A DNA stretch of 64,000 nt, taken from NCBI RefSeq assembly GCF_007858255.1, contig NZ_VFEU01000021.1, positions 1 to 64,000 of the forward strand. The letters are read 5' to 3'. Numbering within the stretch: position 1 is the stretch's first letter; every line of letters begins with the position of its first letter. Shown in pieces: positions 1-61,159 of this stretch. Under the pieces are notes generated by a model. That model searched no databases, was not told the origin of the DNA, and saw only the letters and a program-made list of their open reading frames with translations. A program made the position numbers and the translations under genes. This DNA is from Pseudomonas rhodesiae (GTDB lineage Bacteria; Pseudomonadota; Gammaproteobacteria; Pseudomonadales; Pseudomonadaceae).

Positions 1-119
1 GCGATATCAGCCATTTCTTGATGCATCGGTACAATTGGATTCGACCCCATCAATTCAATGATGGGCTGGCGCCAGCTCGGGCCGAAGAAAAACTTAACGT
101 CGTGTCCGGGATTAGTTGA
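1..119 (-). other. Unidentified partial reading frame at left edge
   Basis: Read on the minus strand, positions 119 to 1 stay open to the window edge and give a protein-like stretch containing GHDVKFFFGPSW and MGSNPIVPMHQEM. A TAG lies about five codons upstream and no convincing start is visible. The composition looks coding, but I do not recognise the family. It may be the beginning or an internal part of a gene cut by a rearrangement near 117-120, where coding-looking sequence changes strand. Confidence 0.3.
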
Positions 120-266
120 CCACTACACACTGAACAAAAAGAGTTCGCCTCGAACGCGGCTAAAGACAGTTTCGAGCGCGCTCTTGGTTCTTCAGTACTA
201 GACAAGTTTCAACTGTACGAGCGCAGACAACGAGAGTCCCTCGCCATGCTGGGCTTCGCCCTCTGA
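120..266 (+). pseudogene. Remnant: C-terminal piece of an unidentified protein
   Basis: The plus frame is open from 120, just after a TGA at 117-119, to a TGA at 264-266. It encodes about 48 residues including KDSFERALGSSVLDKFQLY and then a charged ERRQRE segment ending in MLGFAL. Codon use and residue make-up look like the true C-terminus of a protein, but there is no start codon with a ribosome site and everything upstream is missing. Family not recognised. I infer a 3' gene remnant. Confidence 0.35.
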
Positions 267-881
267 CCTGACGTCAGTACCGCCACACAGTTGGAGTGAG
301 AGTATGGCGTGCAGACCGATCGATCTACTCTCTGACCCAAGAGGGTAAATGATTGGCACCTCCGCCATGCTCTCAACTTCTACAGGCTGATAAGTCGTCG
401 CTACTCGGTCAACCGTTAGGGGCTTGGCGCTGCGTACGCTAATGCGTTATTGACCGTATGGATAGCGGCATAGAGATTAGCGATTGTACTTCGTAGCATC
501 CGATGATGGATGCTGCATCGGACAAGCTATTTGCCAACAGCCACTGTCTTACAACAAACAAACTACGAACCAGCGGCTCGCGAAAAACAATAACAACAAG
601 CGCTAACCCTACTTCAAAGTCCTGCCATCGGAATAAACCAACAATCAGACAGGTGCTAATAATGATTGGATTTTACTCGCGAAATTGGGAGTACCTCCCT
701 CTCTACATCCAATCAGAGAAATCACTTAAAGAAATCCGATATCGCTGCTCGTTGAGACAGGCCAAGGATGCCAAATAAGACACTTCTAAACAGCGTTGCA
801 TGAATAGTTTCGCTGAAGAAAACAAAAATAGGCATCCAAAAATAGATGGCGATAAACGCCACCGACATATAAAGGCAAATT
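267..881. other. Long stretch without a recognisable gene
   Basis: About 600 bases upstream of the symporter gene. Short open frames occur on both strands, but none has convincing codon use, a ribosome site or a known motif. A perfect 7-bp inverted repeat with a 6-base loop (AGCATCC, 495-501, and GGATGCT, 508-514) is the only clear structure. The area is probably decayed accessory DNA plus the promoter region of the following gene. Confidence 0.4.
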
Positions 882-2207
882 ATGAATAAGCTCATTGTCC
901 GCTTTATATTAATAGCCATGGCACTCGGTATTATACTGGGCGCTGGCGTGCACCATACCGTGACAGACGCAAAGATGCTGACAGACATATCGGGGTACCT
1001 TTCTATCGGTACAGATGTGTTCATGCGCCTGATCAAGATGATCATTGGCCCCCTCGTCTTCGCCACATTAGTCCCCGGGTTGGCGCGTATTGGCGACTCA
1101 AGTGACATCGGTAGGGTGGGAGCTAAGGCAATGGCCTGGTTCATCAGCGCGTCTTTCATCTCGCTGTTACTCGGTCTGCTGCTGGCCAACCTGCTCCAGC
1201 CAGGTGTCGGTATGAATTTGACCTTACCTGCAGCCGATGCTCAAAGCGGCTTAAACACCGCCGCCTTCTCGTTGAAGGAATTCATTACCCACCTCGTTCC
1301 ACGATCCATTGCCGAAGCGATGGCCCAAAACGAAATTCTGCAAATTGTGGTGTTCTCGATCTTCTGCGGCACAGCTCTCGCTGGCATAGGCCCGAAGGGT
1401 GAACCGGTTGTCGCACTCATCGAATCCATCTCCCATATGATGTTGAAGATCACCGAGTTCGTAATGTGGCTTGCACCGCTGGCAGTATTTACTGCCGTTG
1501 CAAACATCATTGCGCTTAAGGGATTGGGGATCGTTATCACCTTTGCGAAATTCATCGGCTGCTTCTATCTGGGAATCATCGCCCTTTGGGCCTTGTTGAT
1601 TATCGCAGGATATTTAGTACTCGGCCGTCGGGTCTTTGAGCTCATCCGCACGGTAAAAGGGCCATTTCTTCTGTCTTTCTTCACCGCGAGCTCAGAGGCA
1701 TCTTTTCCTCAACTGCTGGTGTGTCTGGATAAATTTGGCGTCAAACGCAAGATCTCTGGATTCGTTTTGCCCCTGGGCTACTCGTTCAACCTAGATGGCA
1801 CGATGGTCTATTGCACCTTTACCGTCTTGTTCATTGCTCAAGCGTATGGCATCGATATGCCACTGACGACGCAGTTGGGCATGCTGTTGATGTTGATGGT
1901 GACGTCGAAGGGCATTGCCGGTGTACCAAGGGCATCGCTCATTGTGATTGCGGCAACATTGACTCACTTTGGGTTGCCTGAGGAAGGCATCCTTTTAGTG
2001 ATGGCGATCGACACCTTCCTGGACATGGGCCGGTCAGCAACGAACTCGGTTGGCAACTCCATCGCGTGTGCTGTCGTAGCGAAGTGGGAAGGTGCCCTGC
2101 AGTCTTCGAAAGAAGCAGAAGCCGAACTGGAAGCGACCAATCTTTCGTTGAAACCCACTATGCCTGAATACGCTGTGCTGGATCGTGAGGAGGCAATGAG
2201 AACGTAG
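882..2207 (+). CDS. Dicarboxylate/amino acid:cation symporter (DAACS family)
   Basis: 441-residue inner-membrane secondary transporter of the GltP/DctA type, which takes up glutamate, aspartate or C4-dicarboxylates with protons or sodium. The sequence is strongly hydrophobic throughout, with the family marks in order: a serine-rich re-entrant loop (FFTASSEASFP, near residue 270), SFNLDGTMVYC (near 305), and DMGRSATNSVGNS (near 385) that forms substrate and cation sites. The length is usual for the family. The ATG has AAAGG six bases upstream. The exact substrate cannot be read from sequence. Its place among a racemase, a RidA protein and an amino-acid-binding protein suggests an amino acid or dicarboxylate substrate, but this is inference. 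Confidence 0.9.
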   Translation: MNKLIVRFILIAMALGIILGAGVHHTVTDAKMLTDISGYLSIGTDVFMRLIKMIIGPLVFATLVPGLARIGDSSDIGRVGAKAMAWFISASFISLLLGLLLANLLQPGVGMNLTLPAADAQSGLNTAAFSLKEFITHLVPRSIAEAMAQNEILQIVVFSIFCGTALAGIGPKGEPVVALIESISHMMLKITEFVMWLAPLAVFTAVANIIALKGLGIVITFAKFIGCFYLGIIALWALLIIAGYLVLGRRVFELIRTVKGPFLLSFFTASSEASFPQLLVCLDKFGVKRKISGFVLPLGYSFNLDGTMVYCTFTVLFIAQAYGIDMPLTTQLGMLLMLMVTSKGIAGVPRASLIVIAATLTHFGLPEEGILLVMAIDTFLDMGRSATNSVGNSIACAVVAKWEGALQSSKEAEAELEATNLSLKPTMPEYAVLDREEAMRT

Positions 2208-2404
2208 CCAGTCAGGACAGATCTTCCCCGACGACACGGATAGTCGCCTACGTAACACATGGCGAGTCACCTAGATGTCTCGCCATTCCCCGCAAGCCGG
2301 TTGCCGGCTTACCTTCCGACTGACTGCCCTCTCCTTCTAAACTCATCGCGCGCCCCCCTAGAAGCGGTGCCCTTGGAATCTTCGTAAGTGTCTGTCAAAG
2401 GCTC

Positions 2405-3190
2405 CTTGAGCGGTTGAACGGGCGCCCACTTGTGCGACAACAGCTCAGAAATCTCACACGCCCGCTGCGTCGGCAGTCGCGTGAGAACGTCGGATAGGCA
2501 TATGGTTCATGGCAATCGAGCCGTGCCTACAGGATCAAGTTCATGATCGCAGCCGCACGTATGCCGCTGCATAGCTAACCCGCAGTTCGAGCACACAAGT
2601 TCCGACGGCAGGATCTGATTTTCTATTCGGTCATAAGCAACGGAACTGTACCGTCATCAAATTAGCGCGTCAGCGCTATCCAGCGTTTGAGGCTGTAATC
2701 CAGCGCCTTGGCAATAGGTCGATCATCCAAGTGCGGAGCGCATCGATGCTGGGAACTGCTTCTCCCTGCCGTATTCGATGCCGAACATCCAGTTCCAGCT
2801 CCCGGACTTCGCGTTCAACTTCATGTAAAGCCGCGATGTAGTGCAGCGCTTTTTCGGCGTGCGAATCGAAGAACTTGCGGCGAGCATGAGTCATGCAGCC
2901 AATTTCTGTGATGCCCTGCTCGAAGCCTGCCTTGTAGTCAGCGAAGTGGTCGCAGACCAGCTTACCGTTCCGGTCGCCCAGGAAGGTTCGGGCATGCACG
3001 GCTGGGGCTGAAGTCATAGACGACCACTGTGAGGCCGGCGAACTGTCTGGTGGCGTAGGCCCAGACGTAGCCGCGGCAGGTCTTAGGGACGCCTGGAGTC
3101 AGCATTTGTACCGGCGCTTCGTCAGCGTGAATGACGCCGTGCGCAAGCACGGCTTAGACACGCCCCCCCGAGCGCATCGAACTTAAACAG
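2405..3190 (-). pseudogene. Decayed IS66-family transposase (TnpC) remnant
   Basis: Read on the minus strand, pieces of IS66 TnpC appear in the correct order but in different frames and with stops. First comes HGVIHADEAPVQML (near 3150-3110, DDE-domain region), then CMTHARRKFFD with VCDHFADYKAGFEQ (near 2960-2865), then ALDYSLKRW (near 2710), then an AAAIMNLIL segment (near 2550), and last DVLTRLPTQRACEISELL near the C-terminus (2490-2440). At least two in-frame stops and several frame changes prevent an intact product. No terminal inverted repeats or tnpA/tnpB genes were found, so this is an old, immobile fragment. Confidence 0.85.
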
Positions 3191-3373
3191 GTTGACGCCC
3201 TGAATTCAATTTATTCCAAATCAAGATCAATATATGAGAATTAACTGTTTGTTAGAATCAAAAAACTAGGCAAATATGCGTTAGGGGATTGCGCTAGCGC
3301 TTCGTTTGATCAATTCGCATCAGCCCGGAATGAACCATAAAACACAATACTTTGCCCTGCCTGGAGTAGAGAT

Positions 3374-4084
3374 TTGAAAACCATCGGAATTGTTGGCGGC
3401 GTCGCTTGGCCAAGCTCAATTGTTTACTACCGCGTCATCAATGAGCTCGTTGCAAAACGTCTTGGAGGCGAAGGGCGGCACTGCGCTAAATTGGTACTTG
3501 CCCAGACGGACTTTGAGGAAGTTGAGCGCAGACAACGTGAAGGCCGCTGGGACTTGGTCGGTGAATTGCTCGCAGCTGAAGGCAAAAAACTTAAGGCTGC
3601 AGGCGCAGACTTCTTCCTGCTGGCCTGTAATACCGTTCACACCGCCGACGAACAGGTTGAGGCGTCCGTTGATCTTCCCTTCCTCCATATTGTGGATCCC
3701 GCTGCAGAGTATGTAACTTCCCACGGTTTCAAAAAAATCGGGCTGCTCGGAAGCAAATACACGATGACCGGGACATACTTTGTCGATCGCCTTAAAAAGC
3801 GTTACGGGCTCGACGTATTGATTGCGGAAGGAACGCATCAAGATAACGTCCACAATGCGCTGTATGAGGAACTTGTGAAGGGGATTTTTCTGCCCGCTAC
3901 CCGGGAAAAATTCAAGGAAGCAATTGCTGACCTAGCCGCACGAGGCGCTGAAGCTATCATTCTTGGCTGCACAGAGTTCGGCATGCTTGTAGATCAAGGA
4001 GATAGTTCTGTGCCATTGATCGACACAACCGTCATGCATGCACAAGCTGCAGTAGAACTGGCCTTGGGCAATCGCCAATTATAG
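3374..4084 (+). CDS. Aspartate/glutamate racemase family protein
   Basis: 236-residue cytosolic, cofactor-independent amino acid racemase of the Asp/Glu/hydantoin racemase superfamily, closest in architecture to RacD/YgeA-type enzymes. The two catalytic cysteines of the family are present: Cys85 in LLACNTVH and Cys199 in IILGCTEFG. The N-terminus has the usual IGIVGG start of the first Rossmann-like half. The start is a TTG preceded by GGAG at 9 bases, which is an unusual codon but fits the family N-terminus (KTIGIVGG). A RidA gene follows after 28 bases, so the two are probably co-transcribed. The amino acid substrate is not determined. Confidence 0.88.
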   Translation: MKTIGIVGGVAWPSSIVYYRVINELVAKRLGGEGRHCAKLVLAQTDFEEVERRQREGRWDLVGELLAAEGKKLKAAGADFFLLACNTVHTADEQVEASVDLPFLHIVDPAAEYVTSHGFKKIGLLGSKYTMTGTYFVDRLKKRYGLDVLIAEGTHQDNVHNALYEELVKGIFLPATREKFKEAIADLAARGAEAIILGCTEFGMLVDQGDSSVPLIDTTVMHAQAAVELALGNRQL

Positions 4085-4112
4085 TGTGTAGCGTGATGTT
4101 TTGGAGTGGACT

Positions 4113-4580
4113 ATGGCGCCTGAGGAAAAACTAAAGTACTTGGGTCTTGAGCTGCCTCAAGTACCGGCGCCAATTGGAAATTTTTTACCGTGGCGTCGAG
4201 TCGGAAATTTGCTTTATCTTTCTGGGCAAGGGCCGCGAGACGAATTTGGAGCGATCAAAGTCGGAAAAGTAGGCAAAGATTGCTCAGTTGATAATGCGTA
4301 CGACGATGCAAGACGAGTCGGTTTACAAATACTCGCGTCGATTCGGCAAGCGCTCGGTTCTCTCGACCGTGTCGAAGCGGTCGTGAAACTCTTCGGCATG
4401 GTTAACGCGGTTTCGACATTTACTGAGCATCCAAAGGTTATCAATGGGTGCTCCGATCTGTTCATCGAAGTTTTGGGCAAGAAGGGCTGTCATGCTCGAT
4501 CGGCTGTCGGGATGGACTCATTACCTAATGGCATGACAGTCGAGATAGAAGCCATCATTCAGGTTTCCGAAAGCAACTGA
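4113..4580 (+). CDS. RidA (YjgF/YER057c/UK114) family protein
   Basis: 155-residue member of the RidA superfamily, whose best-known members hydrolyse reactive enamines/imines released by PLP enzymes and amino acid oxidases. Visible family features are LYLSGQGPRD near residue 35 and a C-terminal NGMTVEIEAI segment. The ATG at 4113 is chosen over a TTG at 4101 because GGAG sits six bases before it. The protein is longer at its N-terminus than classic 128-residue RidA, which suggests a different subgroup, so imine hydrolysis is not certain. Being directly behind a racemase gene points to amino acid metabolism. Confidence 0.85.
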   Translation: MAPEEKLKYLGLELPQVPAPIGNFLPWRRVGNLLYLSGQGPRDEFGAIKVGKVGKDCSVDNAYDDARRVGLQILASIRQALGSLDRVEAVVKLFGMVNAVSTFTEHPKVINGCSDLFIEVLGKKGCHARSAVGMDSLPNGMTVEIEAIIQVSESN

Positions 4581-4707
4581 TGAAGTCTTTTTGTGAAATG
4601 CCTTAACGGCCTCATTGAACAACTATAATAACGAACGTCTATAGTACTAGTCTGCCGCCACACTGTTAGATGAACCTATATACTTTGACAACAAAGGTGC
4701 ACTTTCA

Positions 4708-5613
4708 ATGAAGATGTCAGCAGGTCTGCTGTACGCTGCAATGCTTAGTATTGCAGCAACAAACCCCGCTTCCGCCGATGAAGCTAACGGAACGCTCAAA
4801 AAAATAAAAAACTCCGGCGCCATTGTACTCGCCTACCGCGACTCAGCGATTCCGTTCTCTTACCTTGATAACGATCAACAAACGATTGGTTACTCATGGG
4901 ATATCGCCAATGCCGTAGCTGCTCGCGTCAAGAGCGAACTTAAGATGCAGAACCTGGAGATCAAGGGCAACCTGGTCACTTCGCAGACGCGAATCCCGCT
5001 CGTGCAAAATGGTACTGTCGACATTGAATGTGGTGTCACCACCAACAATATCGAACGCCAACAGCAAGTTGATTTTTCGGTTGGCATTTTTCAGGCAAGT
5101 ACCCGATTGCTGACGAAAGCGACCTCCGGTGTGAAAGACTTCTCTGACTTACAGGGAAAGAATGTGGTGACTACCGCCGGGACTACTTCTGAGCGCCTGC
5201 TTAAGATAATGAATGCCGACAAGCAGATGGGCATGAATATTATCTCAGCCAAGGATCACAGCGAATCGTTCCAGATGGTGCAATCAGGCCGTGCCGTGGC
5301 ATTCATGCTGGACGACGTATTGCTGGCCGGCTTTGCCTCAAAGACCAACGTGCCTTCCGACTGGGTAATTACAGGACAGCCGCAGTCCCATGAAATATAC
5401 GGCTGTATGGTTCGCAAGGGCGACCCCTCGTTCAAGAAAGTGGTCGACGAAGCCATCAAAGATCTTTACCAATCCGGCAAAATAAACACTCTTTATTCCA
5501 AGTGGTTCGAGAGCCCAGTCCCTCCAAAAGGCCAAAACTTAAACTTCCCGCTCCCCAAAGAGCTTAAAGCACTGATCGATAACCCAACCGACAAAGCGGC
5601 CGATCAGCTGTAG
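4708..5613 (+). CDS. Periplasmic amino-acid-binding protein (GltI-like SBP)
   Basis: 301-residue solute-binding protein of the family 3 type used by polar amino acid ABC importers, most like glutamate/aspartate-binding GltI. Residues 1-23 form a signal peptide ending ASA before DEANG. The mature start has the typical LKKIKNSGAIVLAYRDS, followed by PFSYLD, and the C-terminal lobe has GKINTLYSKWF. A ribosome site AAAGGTG lies before the ATG. No permease or ATPase gene follows in the same direction; only a broken ATPase fragment on the other strand is present. It may serve a permease encoded elsewhere or be an orphan. Ligand is inferred from family resemblance only. Confidence 0.88.
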   Translation: MKMSAGLLYAAMLSIAATNPASADEANGTLKKIKNSGAIVLAYRDSAIPFSYLDNDQQTIGYSWDIANAVAARVKSELKMQNLEIKGNLVTSQTRIPLVQNGTVDIECGVTTNNIERQQQVDFSVGIFQASTRLLTKATSGVKDFSDLQGKNVVTTAGTTSERLLKIMNADKQMGMNIISAKDHSESFQMVQSGRAVAFMLDDVLLAGFASKTNVPSDWVITGQPQSHEIYGCMVRKGDPSFKKVVDEAIKDLYQSGKINTLYSKWFESPVPPKGQNLNFPLPKELKALIDNPTDKAADQL

Positions 5614-5689
5614 ATCGAACCTTGTCTAGCAACTAAACAACGCTGCTTACAACTCCGCCAGGAAATCTGGCGGCGGTTTGAGGCGTGGC

Positions 5690-5887
5690 CATAGCCACAC
5701 CTCTTTGGAGAACACAAAATTGAGTAGCGCGCTCGTAGCGAGGGGTATCGAAGAAGTCCTGCTTACTACAGTCTTCTATGATTTGTCCGCGATCCATGAC
5801 TATCACCCGGCTCGCGACTTTTCGAGCGAAGCCCATTTCGTGTGTAACACACATCATGGTCATGCCTTCCGGAGCCAACTCCACCAT
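5690..5887 (-). pseudogene. 3' fragment of an amino-acid ABC transporter ATPase gene
   Basis: The minus strand from 5887 encodes GMTMMCVTHEMGFARKVA, then RVIVMDRGQIIED and FFDTPRYERATQF. These match the switch-histidine (H-loop) and C-terminal part of GltL/HisP-type ATPases. The Walker A, Q-loop, signature and Walker B parts are absent: the frame upstream of 5887 does not continue the family. The end also deviates, running past the usual C-terminus. This is a 5'-truncated remnant, antiparallel to the neighbouring solute-binding protein gene. Confidence 0.75.
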
Positions 5888-5989
5888 AAGAACCAGGTAT
5901 CAAAGTGACGATTACCGCTGATAGATATTTCTGCGGGAACAGCGACTCGCCTGACCAGAAAACTGAATAGAAAAGAAAGGTATTTGCAA

Positions 5990-7039
5990 ATGACACAAGT
6001 TCGTGCGCTCCTGGAAGGCAGCCAACTGAATAAGCTGCTGGTACAAGTCGCTGGTGAAAAAGAAGCAACCAATCTATTTACCATGATTAAGGTAGAAGAT
6101 CCGTTGCTGGCCGAACAAGCTGGCGACATTGTATCTCGCATGGTGTTGGCGCAGTCCATGAACATGCTTTTGTTTGTAAAGAACCTGGAAGCTGTTCCGG
6201 ACGGAAAGCGTTACGTTGAGGACAGGCTCGCCGCTGGCGGTCAGGTTGTATTTGACCACGGCGCACTACGTACCGTCGCTGCGGCGAACACCGGAGAACT
6301 GCCCCAAGGGGAAATGGCATTCAAACGCTTTCTGGAGCCACTGGGCTTTGCTGTAGCTGATGTTTATCCGCTAGGTCGTCTGAAGATGACTGGCAAAGCC
6401 TACTGTCATAAGGACGCTCCAGAGCTGGTGACACAATTCTTTGTCTCTGAGTTGCACGTCGACCAGTTCTCTCCTGCTTTCCAAGCGGCGGTAAACAACG
6501 TGGTATCCACCTCGCGCGACCCATTGTCACCCCACGCGCAAGCATTGCTGAAGACGCTGGCTGACAAAAATCAACTGGCATTCTCTGATGCGGCCAAACT
6601 GCTACCGGAATTGGTAGGCTGCTTTAACGTACAGCACACCACGCCCGCACTGGCCGACTACCAAGCACTCCTTCTGGAATCCGCTGAAATGGCGTGGATT
6701 ACTACGGAGGGTAATGCCTTCAACCATGCTACCGACCGCGTTCCCGATGTATTTGCTACTGCGGATGAGCTGCGCGCCAAAGGCATGCCAATCAAAGATA
6801 AGGTAGAGGTCTCCGCCAGTGGCCGAGTACGCCAGACTGCTTTCAAGGCAGTCCAGGTGGAGCGTGAGTTCATTGATGAAAATGGTCGGCGCGTGACGCG
6901 CATAGTGCCAGGATCGTTCTATGAGTTCATAACCCGGGATCGCTATAACGACAACGCAGGGAATAATAAGCTCGACCTACGTTTTGATAGTTCCAACGCA
7001 CAGGGAATTTTCAAAATGACCGACGTGTCCGCATGTTGA
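5990..7039 (+). CDS. DUF1338 / HglS-like 2-oxoadipate dioxygenase/decarboxylase family protein
   Basis: 349-residue member of the DUF1338 (VOC-like) family. The characterised Pseudomonas putida member HglS converts 2-oxoadipate to D-2-hydroxyglutarate and CO2 with Fe(II) and O2 in D-lysine breakdown. The residues corresponding to HglS metal ligands and the specificity arginine are present: His90 and Arg94 in FDHGALRT, His246 in GNAFNHATDR and Glu312 in GSFYEF. His-to-His spacing is 156, as recalled for HglS (His70/His226). The protein is about 110 residues shorter than HglS, so orthology is not proven. The ATG at 5990 is preferred to a TTG two codons earlier because of AGAAAGG upstream. Tail-to-tail with a LysR gene. 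Confidence 0.82.
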   Translation: MTQVRALLEGSQLNKLLVQVAGEKEATNLFTMIKVEDPLLAEQAGDIVSRMVLAQSMNMLLFVKNLEAVPDGKRYVEDRLAAGGQVVFDHGALRTVAAANTGELPQGEMAFKRFLEPLGFAVADVYPLGRLKMTGKAYCHKDAPELVTQFFVSELHVDQFSPAFQAAVNNVVSTSRDPLSPHAQALLKTLADKNQLAFSDAAKLLPELVGCFNVQHTTPALADYQALLLESAEMAWITTEGNAFNHATDRVPDVFATADELRAKGMPIKDKVEVSASGRVRQTAFKAVQVEREFIDENGRRVTRIVPGSFYEFITRDRYNDNAGNNKLDLRFDSSNAQGIFKMTDVSAC

Positions 7040-7059
7040 AACATTACTAACATGTACCA

Positions 7060-7124
7060 AAACCGCGCGACCCTGACGACATCACAGTGACAACGCTGCT
7101 GTGGCAGAATAAGTAGCGCGGTTT
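7060..7124. terminator. Nested inverted repeat between convergent genes
   Basis: A perfect 9-bp inverted repeat, AAACCGCGC at 7060-7068 and GCGCGGTTT at 7116-7124, encloses a second one, CACAG at 7083-7087 and CTGTG at 7099-7103. It lies between the stops of two convergent genes. It could act as a two-way terminator or form a structured transcript end. The 47-base spacer and lack of a strong T tract make it atypical. Confidence 0.35.
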
Positions 7125-7142
7125 GCAACCGGCGATGACCAT

Positions 7143-8030
7143 TTAAACTAACAATTTAATCCTCATCATCTCAACAAATTTTTCCGCAGCGATTGAAAGC
7201 CGGGCATTCCGTCTACGTATCAAAGAAAACACTCGGGTACACTTATCAGTCTCCTGAAATGGAAGCATGACAACACCGCAAGATTTCGCGAAAGAAGAAA
7301 TATACTCTGGAACCACCGCAACTCCAGCGCCTGATTGCACCAAGCCTATAGCCGAAGTAAGATCCCCGACCTCAACAACCTGAACGAACCCGATAGCCTC
7401 CATATTTGACCTAACTAGACGCCCAAGATTAGTAACAGGTCTAAGCATAATCATTTTTTCTGATGCTAATTGCCTCCATGAAACCTCTTCGCCTTTTGCG
7501 AGAGGGTGAGACGGTAGGCATGCAAGTCGAAGGGAGTCTTGATAAATTGGCTCCATGATCAACCGAGAATCATCCTGATCAACAGCTGCTATTCCAAAAT
7601 CTACTTTACCGTTTAGAACATAGTCAACCGCGTAATCCGTAGACAACTCATAAACCTCCAAGGATATATCTGGATATTCAGCTTGGAATTCGGCTGTCAC
7701 ATCACATAATAAACTATAAAATATCATAGGTGCGGCTGCCACACCCACATTACCCTTGCGAACAGATGTTAAATCGGACAAGCTTCGAGATGCAGCATCA
7801 AGTGTACCCAGCAACTCCAAAGCAAACTTATATAGATCGGAAGCCCCGTCCATAGGGACTACCTTGCGTGTAGATCGCTCAAACAAAGGAAAGCCAACTT
7901 CCCCCTCCAGCTCCGAGCATAACTTACTAACAGCTGACTGAGTAACATGCAATGCTGACGCAGTTGCAGTAAAGCTCCGCAACTCATAAATCTTCACAAA
8001 AACCTTCAACTGCCTAAATGTTATATTCAT
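7143..8030 (-). CDS. LysR-family transcriptional regulator
   Basis: 295-residue LysR regulator: an N-terminal winged helix-turn-helix (FRQLKVFVKIYELRSFTATA, then LHVTQSAVSK) and a C-terminal co-inducer domain with the usual GVAAAPMIF and VAVVPEYI strands. The ATG at 8030 is chosen because it matches the family N-terminus; an upstream ATG at 8114 would add 28 residues with no family resemblance. It is convergent with the DUF1338 gene. It may control that gene or the decayed aminotransferase/lyase genes to its right, towards which its promoter faces; the target is not shown by sequence. Confidence 0.88.
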   Translation of the reverse strand: MNITFRQLKVFVKIYELRSFTATASALHVTQSAVSKLCSELEGEVGFPLFERSTRKVVPMDGASDLYKFALELLGTLDAASRSLSDLTSVRKGNVGVAAAPMIFYSLLCDVTAEFQAEYPDISLEVYELSTDYAVDYVLNGKVDFGIAAVDQDDSRLIMEPIYQDSLRLACLPSHPLAKGEEVSWRQLASEKMIMLRPVTNLGRLVRSNMEAIGFVQVVEVGDLTSAIGLVQSGAGVAVVPEYISSFAKSCGVVMLPFQETDKCTRVFSLIRRRNARLSIAAEKFVEMMRIKLLV

Positions 8031-8612
8031 GAATTTAACACCCAGCACGGCTTCCGAACTCTGAAGCCAATCTAAAAACATATACTCATTATTAGAGTAT
8101 TCCCCTAAAAGCAAAATTTCGCCCTACATCTACTAGAATAGCAAATCTCCATTGTTTCTAGAAAGCAGCATCACCACTTTCAGAACTCTTCCATTGAACA
8201 GCCAGAAGGCATTGCAAATAAACCCTTTACAAACCCCTTAAAAAGCAGTTTCGCACACAACCAGCAGATACTGAACAATCGTATCTTTTAACAATATACC
8301 CCTAGACTTTCGGTAGCGGAAAATCGACTTGGCGAATTTGCGGGTTGTCCAGTACCAACAAAATACAATAAGTCGGTAGTACGATCTATTGACGGGCCGT
8401 GGTTAGGTCTCCTAGAACTTTGAGAGAAGAGCGCAAACCTAGTCAAATCCGGCACTACGCCATGGGATATTTGTGCGGTTTGCATTGGCCAGCTGCCTCC
8501 GCTGACCCAACATTTCTTTGCATCCGGCCCTACGGACGCGCCAGCGTTTGTTTCTATCGTGGTGCTGGCGCTGCCTAACGGTGGCCCTCCCATTAGTAAT
8601 AGAGAGGTTAAT
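8031..8612. other. Long non-coding stretch, AT-rich
   Basis: About 580 bases between the divergent LysR gene and the aminotransferase remnant. The first 250 bases are clearly AT-rich and presumably carry the LysR promoter. I find no intact gene, and the short open frames on either strand lack family motifs. The part from about 8300 may be further degraded coding sequence, but I cannot identify it. Confidence 0.4.
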
Positions 8613-8755
8613 ATGAGCACACCTGTCACCAACGACTTCGTCCGCGCGCTAGACCGAGACTACGTGTTTCACTCCTAGTCTACCCAAGGCACGCTAAACC
8701 CATTGGTAATCGCCAGGATTGAGGGTTGCAAGCTGTGAGATTTAGATCTGACGGA
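8613..8755 (+). pseudogene. 5' remnant of a class III (PLP) aminotransferase gene
   Basis: From an ATG at 8613 the frame encodes NDFVRALDRDYVFHS, a stop, STQGTLNPLVIARIEG, CKL, a second stop, and DLD. This resembles the N-terminus of class III aspartate/omega aminotransferases, where the motif reads roughly DRxYVFHSWSAQ...LPIAGGEGxYFWD. Both stops (TAG at 8676, TGA at 8736) fall exactly where the family has tryptophan, so TGG codons have mutated. A ribosome-like AGAGAGG precedes the ATG. The rest of the gene is missing and a lyase remnant begins directly behind. Confidence 0.7.
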
Positions 8756-8769
8756 TGACCGTGAAGGAA

Positions 8770-9123
8770 TGATTTTCCCTAGCTCGGTTATTGCCGTCGC
8801 ATCGTGCAATGCACGATTTACCTCAACCAATTGCTGGCGTGACTGCAAACTTCTCGGACTCAGTTTTTTCCAAGAAGAAGCTTCCTTCGAAAAGTCATTG
8901 GGATACTCAGCTAAGCTTTGTATTCATCCATCTCAAATCCCCTGGACACATAATGTGCTTGATCCATCTGAACTGGAAATAGTCTGGGCGAATACGATCA
9001 TCGATCGCGACTCGGAAGTCGCATGCAGTGCAAATCAACGGGATCATGATCGATAGGCAGGTGATTGAGCGCGCCAAGAAAATTTTGGATCGGGTAACCC
9101 GCCAAAAAACGGTGGCGCAGTAA
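8770..9123 (+). pseudogene. 3' remnant of a CitE/HpcH-type aldolase-lyase gene
   Basis: Three reading-frame blocks in order resemble the C-terminal third of CitE-like (citryl/malyl-CoA lyase) proteins. LPQPIAGVTANFSD is in one frame (8821-8862). KSLGYSAKLCIHPSQI with LDPSELEIVWA is in a second (about 8892-8990). AVQINGIMIDRQVIERAKK, running to a TAA at 9121, is back in the first frame. At least two frameshifts separate the blocks and the N-terminal barrel is absent. The gene is dead; its original substrate cannot be inferred. Confidence 0.75.
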
Positions 9124-9274
9124 GGCTCGAATTTTGTTATGTGGCGCGCTCTACTGCTTGAGTGATGCTTGTACACCCTCGAATCGTCCTGGAGCTGGTC
9201 TCCATCTCTCTGCTAGAACGCAGGGTGGTTTGGGCGGCAAAACGTCATCACGCGCCAAAACTGAGTATGGAAGG

Positions 9275-12200
9275 CTAGCTTGCTCGTTCATGAAGGTTAA
9301 TGAATATCTCTCGGGACTCTGCTGATCTCTCCTTCACACTCGCCAGCAGAACCTGCAGCGGATGGAGCACCGTCGCACCCTCCTGTCGCTTAACCTGACT
9401 GCGGCAAGAATAGCCATCGGCAACAACTCGTCCCGATTGGTTAAACTTCTGGATGAGCAGCTTCCAGGATTGCCCATAGATCGTCTCCGACGTTTCGGCG
9501 TTTCTCGTTTCATGTCCGTAGGTACCCGACATCCCGCAGCAGCCACTTGCTTGTACCTGAAGCGTTAGTCCCATACGTTCAAAGATCTTCTGCCATTGGC
9601 CGATGCTTCCTGGTTCATTAGATTTTTCAGTGCAGTGCGGCAGGAAGTGGTAAGGCTCATCCACTTTCGTTACTTCATTTTGCGGCAACGCATTGATAAG
9701 CCACTCCTGCGTAAGCATCACCAGGGGAGCTTCGCCGGCGTCCAATATCTTGGCGTACTCCTGTCGGTACACCAAGGTCATCGCTGGGTCGAGCCCCACC
9801 AATGGAACTTGATACTGCTGAAGACTGAGCAACGACTTTCCATTGAAGCTGGCAGCCTTCTCAAATGTTTTGAGAAAGCCCTGCACCTGAAGGGGTTTGC
9901 CATTAGGCGCGTACGGTGCCAGGTAGACTTTGTAGCCAAGCCGAGAGATCAGCTCCACCCAGTCAACGAGCAACGGTGTTTCAAAAAAACGAGTGAAAGC
10001 GTCCTGTACAAGGATGACACTTTTCGCTCGCTGCTCACCTGAAAGAGTTTCCAGGCGTTCAGGCATTGCCACCTCCACGTTCCAGCGCCGGCAAACGGCC
10101 GCAAAATCCACCAGGCTGAGTAGAGGGCTATCTACCATCCCGGCAGCTCGTTCGAGTAACCAGCGAACCGGTCGAGCGCTCATCACGAAATTGTAGAGAC
10201 GCGGCATCTTGGCAATGTAAGGAACTGTGTATTCCAAGGAGCCGATCAGATAGTCCTTGAGGGGGCGCAAATACCGACTGTGATAAAGCTCAAGAAAGCG
10301 TGATCTAAACTCAGGCACATTCACTTTGACAGGGCATTGGCCTGCGCATGATTTGCATGCCAGGCAACCTGTCATCGCTTCATAAACCTCGTGCGAAAAA
10401 TCTTGCTGGCCCATCTTCTGTGCCAAGCTGTTAACGGCCCGATGTGCAAGGTTCTGAGGGGCAGCGGACAAACGCAGCCGATCACTTGCAGCCAGAACAT
10501 CAACGCCCTGCTCGCCCTGCAATCTCAGCCATTCACGTATCAGCGATGCTCGGCCTTTCGGAGAGTGAATTCGATTGCGCGTAGCCTTCCAGGATGGGCA
10601 CATGGCGTCATCAGGATCGAAGTTGTAGCAAGCGCCATTGCCATTGCAATGAACAGCAGTGTCATAGCTTTGCCAAACACGCTCATCAATTGTCCGGTCT
10701 AAATCACCGCGCAACGCCACTTGGTCAACGCGTGTCAGTCGAGAACCCGGGACAGTTTTCGGCGTTGCAATCTTGCCTGGATTGAGTTGATTGTGTGGGT
10801 CAAAGGCTGCCTTCAGCTCCTGTAAAGCCGGGTACAAATCGCCGAAGTAATCTGGCACATACTGCGACCGCAAGCCCTTGCCATGCTCCCCCCATAACAA
10901 CCCGCCATGTTTTTGAGTCAAGGCAGCGACCGCATCGGAAATCGGTCGGATCAAGGCCGCCTGAACAGGATCTTTCATATCCAGGATCGGGCGCACGTGC
11001 AGTACACCGGCGTCGACGTGGCCGAACATACCGTACTGCAAGTTATAGCTATCCAGGAGCGCTCGAAACTCCTGGATGAAGTCAGCAAGGTTTTCGGGAG
11101 GAACAGCGGTGTCCTCGACAAACGGCTGTGGTCTGGCCTCTCCTTTGACGTTGCCCAACAAACCCACTGCGCGCTTACGCATCGCATAAACCCGCTTTAG
11201 CGCATCAGCTCCGATCGCCAGCGTGTGCCCCAAGCGCACAACAGAGGTATCGCGCTGTAGGTGCAGTACGAATTCATGAACACTCTGCAGAACAACCTCT
11301 TCATCGTCTCCGCTAAATTCAATGAGGTTGATCCCCAGCGTCGGTGTATCAGGATCTTCAGGGAAATACTCTGAGACGCCGTGCCAGACAATATCTTTCA
11401 TCGCCAGCATCAGCACTTTGGAGTCCACGGTCTCGATCGACAGCGGCTTCATTTCCATCAGAGCCTTCGCATCGCGCAAGGCATCCATAAATCCGGCGTA
11501 ACGTACGTTAACCAGAATGGAATATTTCGGGATAGGCAAGACGTTCAGTTTTGCCTCAACGATGAATCCAAGCGACCCTTCAGAGCCACAAAGCACACTA
11601 TTCAGATTGAAGCGTCCGTCCGATTCGCGCAGGTGTGCCAGGTCATAACCGGTCAGGCAGCGATTGAGTTTGGGGAAGGTGTTTCTGATCAATTCAGCTT
11701 GAGTATCGGCGATGTCCAAAACACATCTGTAGACCTCACCGACCCGGTCTTTGCGCCTTGTCAGCGCGGGCAAATGCTCCGCGTCGACAGCTGAACTGGT
11801 GAGACGATTACCGCCAAGCAATACTGTAGAAAGCTCGAGAACGTGATCGCGAGTCTTGCCATAGGTACAGCTCCCCTGACCACTCGCATCGGTGTTGATC
11901 ATCCCTCCAATAGTCGCGCGATTCGACGTTGAGAGTTCAGGTGCAAAGAACAATCCATAGGGTTTGAGTGCCGCGTTCAACTGATCCTTAACCACACCAC
12001 TCTGTACTCTGACCCAGCGCTCCTGGACATTGATTTCCAGGATGTTGTTGAGATGCCTGGACAGGTCGACCACCACACCGTCAGTAAGCGATTGCCCATT
12101 GGTGCCAGTACCTCCACCTCGAGGCGTGAGCACCACTGTACTGTGCTCAGCATTACTGACCAGCCGCGCCAAAATCTCCACATCCTGCGCGTCCAATGGA

Positions 12201-12370
12201 AACAAAGCAGCTTGGGGCAGACGCTGGTAAATAGAATTGTCGGTAGCTAATACCGTTCGGTCGCCATAGTTGCGGGCAATTTCACCTTGAAACCCCGCCC
12301 CTTGGAGCGCGTTCAGAAAAGCGTCATAGGTCGTTTTCTGGGTATTTGGAGGTGATAACCGGGCAATCAT
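9275..12370 (-). CDS. ydiJ: YdiJ-type D-2-hydroxyglutarate dehydrogenase (FAD and Fe-S)
   Basis: 1031-residue two-domain flavoprotein closely resembling E. coli YdiJ (about 1018 residues), an oxidoreductase now assigned to D-2-hydroxyglutarate oxidation to 2-oxoglutarate. Residues 1 to about 560 form the FAD_binding_4/FAD-oxidase part with TPRGGGTGTNG, APELSTSNRATIGG and MFGHVDAGVLHVRP. The rest is a GlpC/GlcF-like Fe-S half with CNGNGACYNFD (near 574), CLACKSCAGQCPVK (near 667) and the CCG motif SGCCGMSGTYGHE (near 943). It is transcribed divergently from a LysR gene with a 158-base shared promoter. Presence near an HglS-like gene, whose product would be D-2-hydroxyglutarate, fits this role. 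Confidence 0.93.
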   Translation of the reverse strand: MIARLSPPNTQKTTYDAFLNALQGAGFQGEIARNYGDRTVLATDNSIYQRLPQAALFPLDAQDVEILARLVSNAEHSTVVLTPRGGGTGTNGQSLTDGVVVDLSRHLNNILEINVQERWVRVQSGVVKDQLNAALKPYGLFFAPELSTSNRATIGGMINTDASGQGSCTYGKTRDHVLELSTVLLGGNRLTSSAVDAEHLPALTRRKDRVGEVYRCVLDIADTQAELIRNTFPKLNRCLTGYDLAHLRESDGRFNLNSVLCGSEGSLGFIVEAKLNVLPIPKYSILVNVRYAGFMDALRDAKALMEMKPLSIETVDSKVLMLAMKDIVWHGVSEYFPEDPDTPTLGINLIEFSGDDEEVVLQSVHEFVLHLQRDTSVVRLGHTLAIGADALKRVYAMRKRAVGLLGNVKGEARPQPFVEDTAVPPENLADFIQEFRALLDSYNLQYGMFGHVDAGVLHVRPILDMKDPVQAALIRPISDAVAALTQKHGGLLWGEHGKGLRSQYVPDYFGDLYPALQELKAAFDPHNQLNPGKIATPKTVPGSRLTRVDQVALRGDLDRTIDERVWQSYDTAVHCNGNGACYNFDPDDAMCPSWKATRNRIHSPKGRASLIREWLRLQGEQGVDVLAASDRLRLSAAPQNLAHRAVNSLAQKMGQQDFSHEVYEAMTGCLACKSCAGQCPVKVNVPEFRSRFLELYHSRYLRPLKDYLIGSLEYTVPYIAKMPRLYNFVMSARPVRWLLERAAGMVDSPLLSLVDFAAVCRRWNVEVAMPERLETLSGEQRAKSVILVQDAFTRFFETPLLVDWVELISRLGYKVYLAPYAPNGKPLQVQGFLKTFEKAASFNGKSLLSLQQYQVPLVGLDPAMTLVYRQEYAKILDAGEAPLVMLTQEWLINALPQNEVTKVDEPYHFLPHCTEKSNEPGSIGQWQKIFERMGLTLQVQASGCCGMSGTYGHETRNAETSETIYGQSWKLLIQKFNQSGRVVADGYSCRSQVKRQEGATVLHPLQVLLASVKERSAESREIFINLHERAS

Positions 12371-12404
12371 GATGGAATTCCTACGGGCTAAAAAGCTAAT
12401 CTAT

Positions 12405-12423
12405 GCATTCGCATTACGTATGC
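12405..12423. promoter_or_regulatory. Candidate LysR operator (GCAT-N11-ATGC)
   Basis: In the divergent ydiJ/LysR promoter region there is an exact dyad GCAT, 11 bases, ATGC. It fits the T-N11-A rule of LysR binding boxes and is symmetrical beyond the core T and A. It lies 35 bases before the ydiJ start and about 105 before the regulator start. Assignment to the adjacent regulator is inference from position. Confidence 0.5.
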
Positions 12424-12528
12424 TTAGTACAGGGCGCACCGAGTAGCTGCATAAGGTTTCAATGATTCTTGCGCCTACGCACGCTTGGAACAAACGTAAT
12501 TTCTGCTGGTTTTGCATGAGCTTTATGA

Positions 12529-13431
12529 ATGAACGCGAGAAGACTGACCCCCTCAATGTCGCTGTTGGTTGCCTTCGAAGCTGCTGCGCGCCATTGCAGC
12601 TTCACCAAGGCAGCAGAAGAGCTGGCGTTGACCCAGAGCGCTGTCAGCCGCCAGGTACAAACCTTGGAGGCTCAACTTGAAATCGAGCTCTTCAGGCGTG
12701 AAGGCCGAAAGATTGAACTGACGGCTGCCGGCGCGCTGTATCAACACGAGTTGACGGCGGCTTTGGGTCGCATTCGAAGCGCAACATTGCAGACCATTTC
12801 GTACAAGAATGACGGTGGCCCACTGAGCCTGGCGGTACTGCCGACACTAGGTTCGAAATGGCTGCTTCCACGGATGCATGAGTTCTACGCAAAACACCCG
12901 GAAATCCTGGTTCACATACATTCGAGAATCATCCGGGAGGACGTGCACTCTTCAACTCACGACATGAACGCAATCATCTGCGTCGGCTCCGGGGATTGGC
13001 CAGGCTACATTTCACATAAGTTGCTCACTGAAAAACTGGTAGTGGTTGCCAGTCCTGCAGCGCTGCCCGAGTACCGCTCAATGACACCTGCGAACGTTGC
13101 TGAGCATGCATTGTTAAATGTCGTATCGAGGCCCAGTGCCTGGTCTGACTGGTTCGACAACCATAACGTTGACCACAGAAACATGCGTTCAGGCCCGAGC
13201 TTTGAGCTCACGGCTCACCTCATTCAGGCGGTATCAGCAGGGATTGGAATTGGCCTAGTTCCAGAAATTCTTGTGCAGGATGAATTGAAGAGCGGCGAAC
13301 TCGTTGCATTGTTTGAACCGATGGAAAGCGGTCGTAGCTACTATCTTATCTACGCGACTCGATATCAGAATTTACCCTCATTGAATGCATTTAGTGCCTG
13401 GCTTTTGTCGCTACCATTTCCAGACAAATGA
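12529..13431 (+). CDS. LysR-family regulator (GcvA-like), divergent to ydiJ
   Basis: 300-residue LysR protein. The DNA-binding part reads LLVAFEAAARHCSFTKAAEE and LALTQSAVSRQVQTLE, the pattern of the GcvA/DsdC-like branch, followed by an effector domain with LAVLPTLGSKWLLPR and AGIGIGLVPEIL. A second ATG at codon 10 would also keep the whole domain. Divergent arrangement with ydiJ and a T-N11-A dyad between them suggest that it controls ydiJ, perhaps in response to a hydroxy or oxo acid; the effector is unknown. Confidence 0.9.
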   Translation: MNARRLTPSMSLLVAFEAAARHCSFTKAAEELALTQSAVSRQVQTLEAQLEIELFRREGRKIELTAAGALYQHELTAALGRIRSATLQTISYKNDGGPLSLAVLPTLGSKWLLPRMHEFYAKHPEILVHIHSRIIREDVHSSTHDMNAIICVGSGDWPGYISHKLLTEKLVVVASPAALPEYRSMTPANVAEHALLNVVSRPSAWSDWFDNHNVDHRNMRSGPSFELTAHLIQAVSAGIGIGLVPEILVQDELKSGELVALFEPMESGRSYYLIYATRYQNLPSLNAFSAWLLSLPFPDK

Positions 13432-13525
13432 GGTGTGAGACTTAAACCGTTGCACTGCTGCCGGCCTGTCACATTTTGCTCCCCCCTCCGCCATACCGGC
13501 CCACACGGGCCCTGCCAATCCCGCC

Positions 13526-13553
13526 ACAAACGGGGGTACAGACGGGGGTAGAA
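13526..13553. repeat. Short direct repeat ACGGGGGTA beside tRNA-Ser
   Basis: ACGGGGGTA occurs twice in tandem-like spacing within 28 bases, about 65 bases from the tRNA-Ser 3' end. It is located between the tRNA terminator and the accessory region. It could be a recombination-related trace at the island border, but nothing else confirms this. Confidence 0.3.
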
Positions 13554-13566
13554 ACCAAATCACAGG

Positions 13567-13605
13567 CAAAAAAAATCCCGCAAAGCCCCTGGCTTGCGGG
13601 ATTTC
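13567..13605 (-). terminator. Rho-independent terminator of tRNA-Ser
   Basis: On the minus strand AAATCCCGCAA, a short GC-rich loop and TTGCGGGATTT form a long perfect stem followed by a T run. It lies about 12 bases after the tRNA 3' end, so it ends the tRNA transcript. Confidence 0.85.
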
Positions 13606-13616
13606 TCTTTCATGTT

Positions 13617-13707
13617 TGGCGGGAAACCAGGGATTCGAACCCTGGAGACGCTATTAACGTCCGCCGGTTTTCAAGACCGGTGCATTCAACCACTCTGCCA
13701 ATTTCCC
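13617..13707 (-). tRNA. tRNA-Ser (anticodon UGA)
   Basis: 91-nucleotide class II tRNA read on the minus strand. The acceptor strand GGGAAAT pairs with GTTTCCC (one T-G pair), followed by discriminator G and an encoded CCA. The anticodon stem CCGGT/ACCGG encloses CTTGAAA, giving anticodon TGA for serine UCA codons. A long variable arm (GCGGACGTTAATAGCGTC) and a normal TTCGAAT T loop confirm serine. The 3' end faces the accessory region at 1-13.6 kb, the orientation expected of a tRNA used as an integration site. Confidence 0.97.
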
Positions 13708-13859
13708 TTGTGCGACACAGGAGAATAATAGCCCATCCCGTCTCAGCGGGCGCCATAATACCCGAATGAAACACACTGTCAAACTCTCGCCATCGCTTGT
13801 TACAGAGCGTCTGTTATGATCTTTGCGACTGAACGTTTCAAAACCCAAGGAGTGTCGCC

Positions 13860-14531
13860 ATGCGCGAACAGAATTACGCAGTGAATGGCAACGCCCAGGC
13901 TGAGCAGCTTGAAGTCAGCCGCGTGTTGCGCAACACCTATGGCCTGCTCGCCCTCACCCTCGCCTTCAGTGGCGTGATGGCGTTCGTGGCGCAGCAGATG
14001 CGTGTCGGCTACCCGAATATCTTTGTGGTGCTGATCGGTTTCTACGGTCTGTTCTTCCTCACCAACAAGCTGCGCGATTCGGCCTGGGGCCTGGTGTCGG
14101 CGTTTGCCTTGACCGGTTTCATGGGTTTTATCCTCGGCCCGATTCTTAACCGCTACCTTGGAATGGCTGGCGGCGCAGAAGTGGTCAGTTCGGCGTTTGC
14201 CATGACCGCGCTGGTGTTCGGTGGTCTGTCGGCTTATGTGCTGGTCACCCGTAAAGACATGAGCTTCCTGGGCGGCTTCATCACCGCAGGTTTCTTCGTG
14301 TTGCTGGCGGCTGTGGTTGCGGGCATGTTCTTCCAGATCAGTGGCCTGCAACTGGCGATCAGCGCCGGTTTCGTGCTGTTTTCCTCGGTGTGCATCCTGT
14401 TCCAGACCAGCGCCATCATCCACGGCGGTGAGCGCAACTACATCATGGCGACCGTGAGCCTGTATGTATCGATCTACAACCTGTTCATCAGCCTGTTGCA
14501 GATCTTCGGCATCATGAGCCGTGACGACTGA
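13860..14531 (+). CDS. yccA: Bax inhibitor-1 / YccA family membrane protein
   Basis: 223-residue inner-membrane protein with seven hydrophobic segments. It belongs to the BI-1/YccA (UPF0005) family, whose E. coli member YccA binds and modulates the FtsH protease. The family length is about 220. Typical marks are an N-terminal soluble stretch of about 25 residues, the first helix pair GLLALTLAFSGVMAF and the C-terminal SLYVSIYNLFISLLQIFG. A good ribosome site AAGGAG stands before the ATG. It is a single gene bounded by tRNA-Ser upstream and a strong terminator downstream. The function in Pseudomonas is inferred from the family. Confidence 0.93.
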   Translation: MREQNYAVNGNAQAEQLEVSRVLRNTYGLLALTLAFSGVMAFVAQQMRVGYPNIFVVLIGFYGLFFLTNKLRDSAWGLVSAFALTGFMGFILGPILNRYLGMAGGAEVVSSAFAMTALVFGGLSAYVLVTRKDMSFLGGFITAGFFVLLAAVVAGMFFQISGLQLAISAGFVLFSSVCILFQTSAIIHGGERNYIMATVSLYVSIYNLFISLLQIFGIMSRDD

Positions 14532-53760: not shown

Positions 53761-56479
<2,719 letters not shown>

Positions 56480-56498
56480 GGTTGTAAAGCAGCATCAC

Positions 56499-56530
56499 AA
56501 ACCCCGGCCAAGTGTCGGGGTTTGTGTTTT
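56499..56530 (+). terminator. Terminator after idh
   Basis: AAACCCCG and CGGGGTTT with a nine-base loop, followed by GTGTTTT, form a Rho-independent terminator 20 bases behind the stop. It also faces the converging LysR pseudogene. Confidence 0.85.
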
Positions 56531-56535
56531 CTAAG

Positions 56536-57414
56536 TCATTGCTTACTATTGGCATACTCTGAAATCCATACTGAGCGAATCAACTCAAGCACCTCGCGCC
56601 TATACACAGGATTCCAACCCGCTCGCTCTTTAGGTATCACTCCAAATTGAGGTAACTTCGGCAAACTTGAGAAATTTTCTAGACTTTTTAAACCCGATAC
56701 ATGCGCAATAAAAGGTAGCAATGTAATACCAATTCCCGCCTGAACTGCAGACCTCAGCGACATCAAATCCTCCGACTCATAAACACAATGCCATTTGATA
56801 GCGCAGCCCTCTAGACTCCGAATCGCCAGACTACGAAACCCGCAGGGCGGCTTGAACAAAGCGAGAGGAACGTTATGCACGTTATCGATCAAGTCAGCGC
56901 TTTCACCAGCAAACCACCTTACCGATAACGTATGCCAAGGATGCTCATGTGTTTCTTTTAATTCATCTATCACGAGGCATAGGTCGATCTTGCCCTCATT
57001 TACCGCCTCTCTTAGCAAACCAGACCTAGCGACCTTTACCACCAGCTGTATAGCAGGAAAGTGAGCAGCCATGCTGGAAATAATTTTGGGGAGCACCCCC
57101 TCACAAAAATGCTCTGGCATACCCATTACAATTATTTCTCTTTTCTCAACCACTTCAAAAAGCCTACCAATTTTATCGTTACAAACAACGATATCCTTGG
57201 CATAACCGAAAAGTTTCTCTCCTTCCACCGTCAAAAACACCTGTCGATTTTCCCTTGCAAATAACTCCACACCTAACAAATCTTCTAATCGCTTGATCTG
57301 CTGGCTAATGGCAGGCTAAGTGAGGCTTAAAGCTTCGGCTGCGCGCGTAAAACTTTTGGTTTCGCTTACTTTTATAAAACTTCGCAAAGACTGAACATCA
57401 AGATTGACTCTCAT
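56536..57414 (-). pseudogene. LysR-family regulator interrupted by an amber codon
   Basis: Reading from an ATG at 57414 gives a normal LysR start (VQSLRSFIKVSETKSFTRAA, EALSLT). A TAG at 57316-57318 then stands as codon 33, where the family has glutamine in LTQPAIS. The frame continues intact afterwards (PAISQQIKRLEDLLGVELF and the full effector domain) to 56536. A single CAG-to-TAG change thus splits an otherwise complete 292-residue gene. Restart inside would remove most of the helix-turn-helix. Either a recent inactivation, a suppressible codon or a sequencing error. Codons are more AT-rich than in the core genes. Confidence 0.88.
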
Positions 57415-57551
57415 GACGCACACCTACCAAAATAAATATTCCAATTTTGGCAAATCAACGTCTCACTCGCCACTAGCTGTTCGGCTAGGGAAAAACTGAA
57501 TTTACGAGTAAAAAATACAAAAAATGTTTAATTTGAGATTTTTCCGTCATC

Positions 57552-59105: not shown

Positions 59106-59175
59106 AACAACCTCCTACATAATTTTCTTACGAACACAAAACACCTAACCACTCAAAGAATTAGACACTATGCAG

Positions 59176-61121: not shown

Positions 61122-61159
61122 TGTTATTCTCCTGCTAAGCGGTACTCAGTAATTCAGGC

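Follow-up and report, generated by a model that had tools for sequence, protein, structure and literature searches.

A short DUF1338 protein, probably a 2-oxoadipate oxygenase, in a mosaic island of Pseudomonas rhodesiae

Three proteins of the DUF1338 family, HglS of Pseudomonas putida, YdcJ and rice FLO7, are active on 2-oxoadipate, and the authors predicted the same activity for every DUF1338 protein carrying the substrate arginine (PMC7286885). According to the same source HglS took 2-oxoadipate alone of seven 2-oxoacids tried, while FLO7, whose substrate arginine is Arg64, is active without the contacts of the HglS substrate loop, Val402-Ser403. Here we analyse a DUF1338 gene of Pseudomonas rhodesiae and a nearby gene for YdiJ, a putative D-2-hydroxyglutarate dehydrogenase (D2HGDH). 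Both lie within the opening 64 kb of contig C13 (NZ_VFEU01000021.1) of a 6.33 Mb draft genome; we call these 64,000 nucleotides the window. Our best explanation, to which we give a probability of about 0.8, is that the DUF1338 protein is a 2-oxoadipate oxygenase yielding D-2-hydroxyglutarate, derived from a Vogesella-like lineage and placed in a mosaic island near a Pseudomonas YdiJ-LysR pair. The enzyme class is an ordinary one, with a well-supported function in a mosaic setting.

A short DUF1338 protein with the residues of HglS

The DUF1338 open frame spans 5984-7039 (+), with the ATG at position 5990 as the probable start codon, since it is kept in the three Vogesella loci compared. The product matches the PF07063 profile (HGLS, DUF1338) at 96.6 bits against a gathering score of 25 (E 2.5e-27). 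Numbered from this ATG, it contains a metal triad (His90, His246 and Glu312) and a substrate arginine (Arg94), the counterparts of His70, His226, Glu294 and Arg74 of HglS (PMC7286885); the residue spacings are 4/156/66, compared with 4/156/68 in HglS. An alignment of the window protein with 35 relatives, selected from 97 usable ones, shows all four residues unchanged in 36 of 36 sequences. The same alignment has an invariant NAQGIFKMT segment near the C-terminus of the short type. In profile comparisons, DHGALRT, FNHAT and SFYEF of the subfamily align with DHFAFRT, LNHTT and SYIEF of rice FLO7; long HglS is matched with a probability of 95.7, its second histidine motif also being aligned.

By sequence, the window protein falls in the short subfamily represented by PDB entry 3iuz (52% identity, E 8e-109), a putative glyoxalase superfamily protein of Ralstonia eutropha JMP134 that, as far as the account in PMC7286885 goes, was biochemically uncharacterised at that time. 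Its AlphaFold2 model (pLDDT 92.8) has a fold of the vicinal oxygen chelate (VOC) type, matched at Z 22-45 by 3iuz, 6w1k, 3lho, 6w1h, 6w1g and 2rjb. The individual superpositions give Z 45.1 over 320 residues for 3iuz, 27.3 for FLO7 (6w1k, with 2-oxoadipate), 24.9 for 3lho, 23.2 for HglS and 22.4 for YdcJ; the next listed fold family, HMS/HPPD, reaches Z 13.3 or less against the same model. With FLO7, which converts 2-oxoadipate to 2-hydroxyglutarate, the window protein has in common the fold, the length class, the four residues and a C-terminal NAxxIF segment, but FLO7 is a plant plastid enzyme of about 20% identity. HglS (6w1g/6w1h) likewise shares the fold, the metal triad, the arginine motifs and the pathway context, but is again only about 20% identical and, with a 464-residue chain, about 115 residues longer.

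An initial annotation of this DNA had pointed to the four residues in HglS-like order and spacing, estimated the protein to be some 110 residues shorter than HglS and envisaged comparing a model with HglS; the first two observations hold, and the superpositions above provide the comparison. It had also noted a complete YdiJ-type protein 2.2 kb away. This too is borne out: the gap measures 2236 bp, and the protein scores 1602.7 bits on the NCBIfam YdiJ equivalog NF049975 (cutoff 1350), which covers residues 1-1011 and predicts a D2HGDH by family. Both frames look kept by purifying selection, with nonsynonymous and synonymous divergences (dN/dS) of 0.094/1.52 between the window DUF1338 and that of Vogesella oryzae and 0.176/2.9 between the window YdiJ and a Pseudomonas relative; dS is near saturation in both, so that the direction alone counts.

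From the computed family, fold, residues, ancestry and context we infer the following substrate and reaction, and, in this strain, two proteins working in series. The DUF1338 product would be a VOC-fold oxygenase that depends on Fe(II) and belongs to the short class typified by 3iuz and FLO7. Most likely, 2-oxoadipate is bound at the metal via its 2-oxo acid end, as in HglS and FLO7, while Arg94 would pair with the far carboxylate. An O2-driven decarboxylation followed by hydroxylation of the remaining carbon would then produce D-2-hydroxyglutarate, which YdiJ could oxidise to 2-oxoglutarate.

Genome context of the short class

We compared the best 80 of 303 confirmed loci of relatives, a set rich in Burkholderia and not independent. 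A D2HGDH-like gene stands on the same strand at most 2.5 kb downstream of DUF1338 in 37 of the 80. In 16 of these it is YdiJ (at least 50%), within 1.4 kb, and all 16 are among the 17 Neisseriales-type loci; none of the sought genes lies in between in 14 of them, an aminotransferase gene in two. A distant YdiJ-like protein is encoded downstream in five loci, and a 475-residue dehydrogenase dependent on flavin adenine dinucleotide (FAD), of the D2HGDH/glcD kind, in another 16. AmaB (L-piperidine-6-carboxylate dehydrogenase, at least 55%) is found within 5 kb in 25/80 loci and a 2-aminoadipate-transaminase-like gene in 6/80. Altogether, a D2HGDH-like, AmaB or 2-aminoadipate-transaminase-like gene is present in 51/80 loci, or in 47/76 without the four that supplied the query proteins (L045, L052, L058 and L070); with random anchors in the same loci, the D2HGDH rule was satisfied in 0/8496 cases. 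This strict count excludes an FAD oxidase that no model names pipecolate oxidase, as well as a pyridoxal phosphate (PLP)-dependent aminotransferase/MocR-like protein scoring under every cutoff. A divergent GcvA-like LysR gene accompanies DUF1338 in 63/80 loci, its product being 35-43% identical to that of the LysR gene beside the window YdiJ.

In Thalassospira (L052), DUF1338 stands in a row with an FAD oxidase gene, a gene resembling 2-aminoadipate transaminase (532 bits, short of the cutoff of 650) and an L-piperidine-6-carboxylate dehydrogenase gene (840 bits, above the cutoff of 730). A Caballeronia plasmid typed as conjugative carries LysR, DUF1338, an FAD/iron-sulphur (Fe-S) dehydrogenase and an aminotransferase together, and corresponding operons with long HglS, near electron-transfer flavoprotein genes, occur on plasmids of Aureimonas and Variovorax.

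The two DUF1338 types also appear in the same setting, in different genomes. Among Pseudomonadaceae, 6/6 loci fetched wide (of 19 known) place AmaB and LysR next to short DUF1338, and 6/16 long-HglS loci fetched place AmaB, LysR and an aminotransferase next to long HglS, with YdiJ between in three of the six; these three had been picked for having YdiJ near. No AmaB of at least 55% was found in five YdiJ-centred loci of 18-19 kb (L157, L158, L159, L169 and L170). That two dissimilar DUF1338 types occupy one locus is, in our view, the best genomic sign of a shared function.

Judged by gene neighbourhoods, the context thus supports a 2-oxoadipate role for the short DUF1338. Together with family, fold and residues it makes the assignment as a 2-oxoadipate enzyme very probable, as the initial annotation had suggested. 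Its reservation that the protein might be a subfamily with another 2-oxoacid substrate stands in part: the short subfamily is real (the 3iuz type), while a different substrate is rendered less plausible by the operon context.

Several observations weigh against this assignment. The window protein lies far under the cutoff of the HglS equivalog model NF049974, which describes the long type (25.5 bits, cutoff 550); it probably works like HglS, though the curated model does not class it as an HglS ortholog. No D2HGDH-like, AmaB or 2-aminoadipate-transaminase-like gene was seen in 29/80 loci, 17 of which offer only a gene without assigned function (FAD oxidase-like or another PLP gene), while 12 have nothing that was sought. 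The racemase, Rid protein, substrate-binding protein and symporter encoded next to the window gene are absent from the conserved DUF1338 operons, and the sought lysine genes are unmatched in the first 20 kb of the window. Finally, the same genome holds a complete long HglS on contig C7, and serA beside a glcD/D2HGDH-like gene whose role is deduced from its position. AmaB (823 bits) and AmaA (738 bits) are encoded elsewhere in this genome, both above cutoffs. With AmaA, AmaB, the complete long HglS and the D2HGDH-like gene next to serA already available, the window pair may be redundant or differently regulated.

The 2-oxoadipate assignment agrees with the published prediction for DUF1338 proteins, and so extends knowledge rather than overturning it. 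Genome context gives a well-supported function to the 3iuz branch, which has a solved structure and, as far as seen, no assay; many DUF1338 genes of proteobacteria that carry only a domain name could on this basis be interpreted as encoding the 2-oxoadipate step of lysine degradation, and their coupling to D2HGDHs becomes testable.

Separate origins of DUF1338 and YdiJ

In the window the two genes face each other from opposite strands, and the DNA between them holds a LysR gene and 1.1 kb without a clear gene; the close, same-strand order of the 37 relatives is not found here. The DUF1338 protein shares 85% identity with its Vogesella oryzae counterpart and falls inside the Vogesella clade with a support of 99 in the Shimodaira-Hasegawa-like approximate likelihood ratio test (SH-aLRT), the other Pseudomonadaceae short proteins forming a separate clade (SH-aLRT 100). 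YdiJ is 77% identical to a Pseudomonas YdiJ and groups there (SH-aLRT 99), apart from the Neisseriales YdiJ. Both trees are quick IQ-TREE searches with SH-aLRT as sole support. Long branches were flagged in the DUF1338 tree (L115 with the Pseudomonadaceae rows), the window row not being among them, and rows with stops in the matched stretch were dropped (L078 and L016 for DUF1338; L040, L044, L051, L121, L125, L137 and L143 for YdiJ).

Among 248 genomes of the family, a YdiJ scoring over 1,200 bits is found in 38 (the match contains a stop in five of them and is fragmented in a sixth), a PF07063 match in 77 and both in 28; a full YdiJ by this threshold occurs in 0/19 of the other family genomes with a short DUF1338. 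YdiJ and its own LysR form a divergent pair in 25/29 family loci fetched. Because the trees differ, co-occurrence is 0/19 and YdiJ pairs with its LysR gene, the two genes most likely reached this place by separate routes. The DUF1338 gene would stem from a Vogesella-like lineage, where it is trailed by its own YdiJ; here it lies without that YdiJ, near an independent Pseudomonas YdiJ-LysR pair. Searching the window gaps with Vogesella proteins for remains of YdiJ or LysR gave chance-level matches only, as did a promoter and terminator scan of 4500-9400. Within the 8114-9275 gap, a sub-cutoff C-C_Bond_Lyase match (8769-9053) hints at a decayed gene; a plasmid search with this gap gave no match.

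The window YdiJ could have a purpose of its own, its closeness to DUF1338 being due to chance, and we regard this as a serious possibility that falls somewhat short of even odds. YdiJ of Escherichia coli and Pantoea has been proposed to recycle D-2-hydroxyglutarate made by SerA (PMC9504171), and the window gene is a full-length equivalog match to YdiJ of E. coli and Pantoea ananatis, differing in its place within the Pseudomonas clade and its divergent GcvA-like LysR gene. Against 10 of the 38 family genomes with YdiJ over 1,200 bits that lack a PF07063 gene stand 28 that have one (relatedness uncorrected); in the lysine locus of three family genomes, 0.4-1.5 kb separates YdiJ from a long HglS, and the present genome already has its D2HGDH-like gene beside serA. 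As a separate observation, a decayed C-terminal piece of a second YdiJ is found on another contig (C42:8680-9086; 68% in its first part, 58% in a second part that contains stops).

It is improbable, by contrast, that DUF1338 acts on another 2-oxoacid, one arising from an acidic amino acid that the neighbouring symporter, substrate-binding protein, racemase and Rid protein would handle. Racemase, Rid and glutamate-type transport genes do adjoin DUF1338 in the window; the genome has three PF07063 genes, the most among the 248 (one other has two), one of which, on contig C3, comes after diaminopropionate-ammonia-lyase-like and Rid genes; and a 42-43% relative of that lyase occurs about 7 kb from short DUF1338 in two Pandoraea loci (L106 and L112). 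Yet at E 1e-8 the 80 loci yield no symporter, Rid or substrate-binding protein match and only two weak racemase matches (28-29%), many relatives, both Pandoraea loci included, adjoin D2HGDH or AmaB genes, and the reported selectivity of HglS among seven 2-oxoacids (PMC7286885) points the same way. The Pandoraea lyase relatives themselves are at L106:17836-18978 and L112:17542-18624, at that distance from a run of short DUF1338, AmaB and aminotransferase genes.

Weakest is a single co-inherited, compact 2-oxoadipate to 2-oxoglutarate module: 2.2 kb separates the genes, and such a pair appears to form an operon in Neisseriales, but ancestry in two different clades (99 each), opposite strands, the intervening LysR gene and the stand-alone YdiJ-LysR pair of relatives make it very unlikely, and the trees led us to reject co-inheritance. 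Of the initial annotation's module, then, the chemistry is probably right and the unity of descent is not; the survey of co-occurrence that it envisaged finds the pairing in 16/17 Neisseriales-type loci and no full YdiJ in the 19 other family genomes with a short DUF1338.

The island and its interrupted HglS

The region was initially taken to be accessory, and both composition and comparison confirm it. The GC content is 0.49-0.54 in 1-14000 and 0.58-0.64 in 14001-48000. A block of BI-1 and tRNA-Ser(TGA) is present in 6/6 near relatives compared, out of 12 relatives of the same genus, and no island gene has a match above 40% identity in the fetched stretch of those six. The island is a mosaic (Table 1).

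Table 1. Features of the window around the DUF1338 and YdiJ genes.
Coordinates	Strand	Feature	Basis or remark
1..127	+	Right end of IS3-family element inserted in long HglS	
128..266	+	C-terminal tail of long HglS	
882..2207	+	Sodium:dicarboxylate/glutamate symporter family (SDF)	Profile matches
2404..3155		IS66 (ISPsy43-like) remnant	Transposase piece on - at 2679-3017
3374..4084	+	Asp/Glu-type amino-acid racemase	PF01177
4101..4580	+	Rid-family protein	PF14588/PF01042
4708..5613	+	Glutamate/aspartate-type ATP-binding cassette (ABC) substrate-binding protein	NF008063, 371.7 bits, just under cutoff 375
5990..7039	+	Short DUF1338 (3iuz/FLO7-type) protein, 349 aa	PF07063, subfamily alignment, model
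7143..8114	-	Second LysR regulator, GC 0.437, convergent with DUF1338	Profile matches
9275..12370	-	YdiJ-type FAD and Fe-S D-2-hydroxyglutarate dehydrogenase (by family), Pseudomonas lineage, 1031 aa	NF049975, tree
12529..13431	+	GcvA-like LysR regulator, divergent from YdiJ	Profile matches, relatives
13617..13707	-	tRNA-Ser(TGA), island border	

The window opens on the end of an IS3-family element beside the tail of a long HglS, and the front of such a gene lies at the end of contig C3 (L162:8208-9569), where it is cut by the left end of an IS3 element of this kind directly past the conserved SAAGIFQSN segment. A CAC site repeat is found on both flanks, at the C3 and C13 ends. Each end of the element has two near-identical copies at contig ends, as well as more diverged copies, and the other two flanks are without CAC. 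A C3-C13 junction, with one IS3 element splitting one HglS, is strongly suggested by these sequences, and two DUF1338 genes of unlike type, one of them interrupted, appear to be present in the island. We tentatively propose, while thinking it rather doubtful, that the short 3iuz type forms a second class of 2-oxoadipate oxygenase, interchangeable with long HglS, which it displaces in the AmaB-LysR locus, and that the Vogesella-derived copy here backs up or replaces the interrupted long HglS of the same island.

Upstream of the C3 HglS (L162:4226-8077) are an aspartate-aminotransferase-type gene on the opposite strand, the diaminopropionate-ammonia-lyase-like gene and a Rid gene. The trio of lyase, Rid and HglS was seen in none of the 16 long-HglS loci fetched or four plasmid regions, ten further genomes with a lyase match standing outside that survey. 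The racemase and Rid genes of the window were also considered as conserved members of a DUF1338 operon; the 80 loci lend this no support, and three plasmid regions with their relatives are unrelated contexts.

Between the substrate-binding protein and DUF1338 genes lies an open frame of 84 residues (5636-5887, -) without a Pfam match; in a few loci of Neisseriales and Herbaspirillum, open frames some kb away from DUF1338 are 43-47% like it. The border tRNA-Ser(TGA) is about 77-87% like those of the near relatives over matched bases, as if island-borne. Beyond the island, GC falls again to 0.46-0.51 at 56-62 kb, and this second low-GC stretch (56001-62000) has a strongly negative GC skew.

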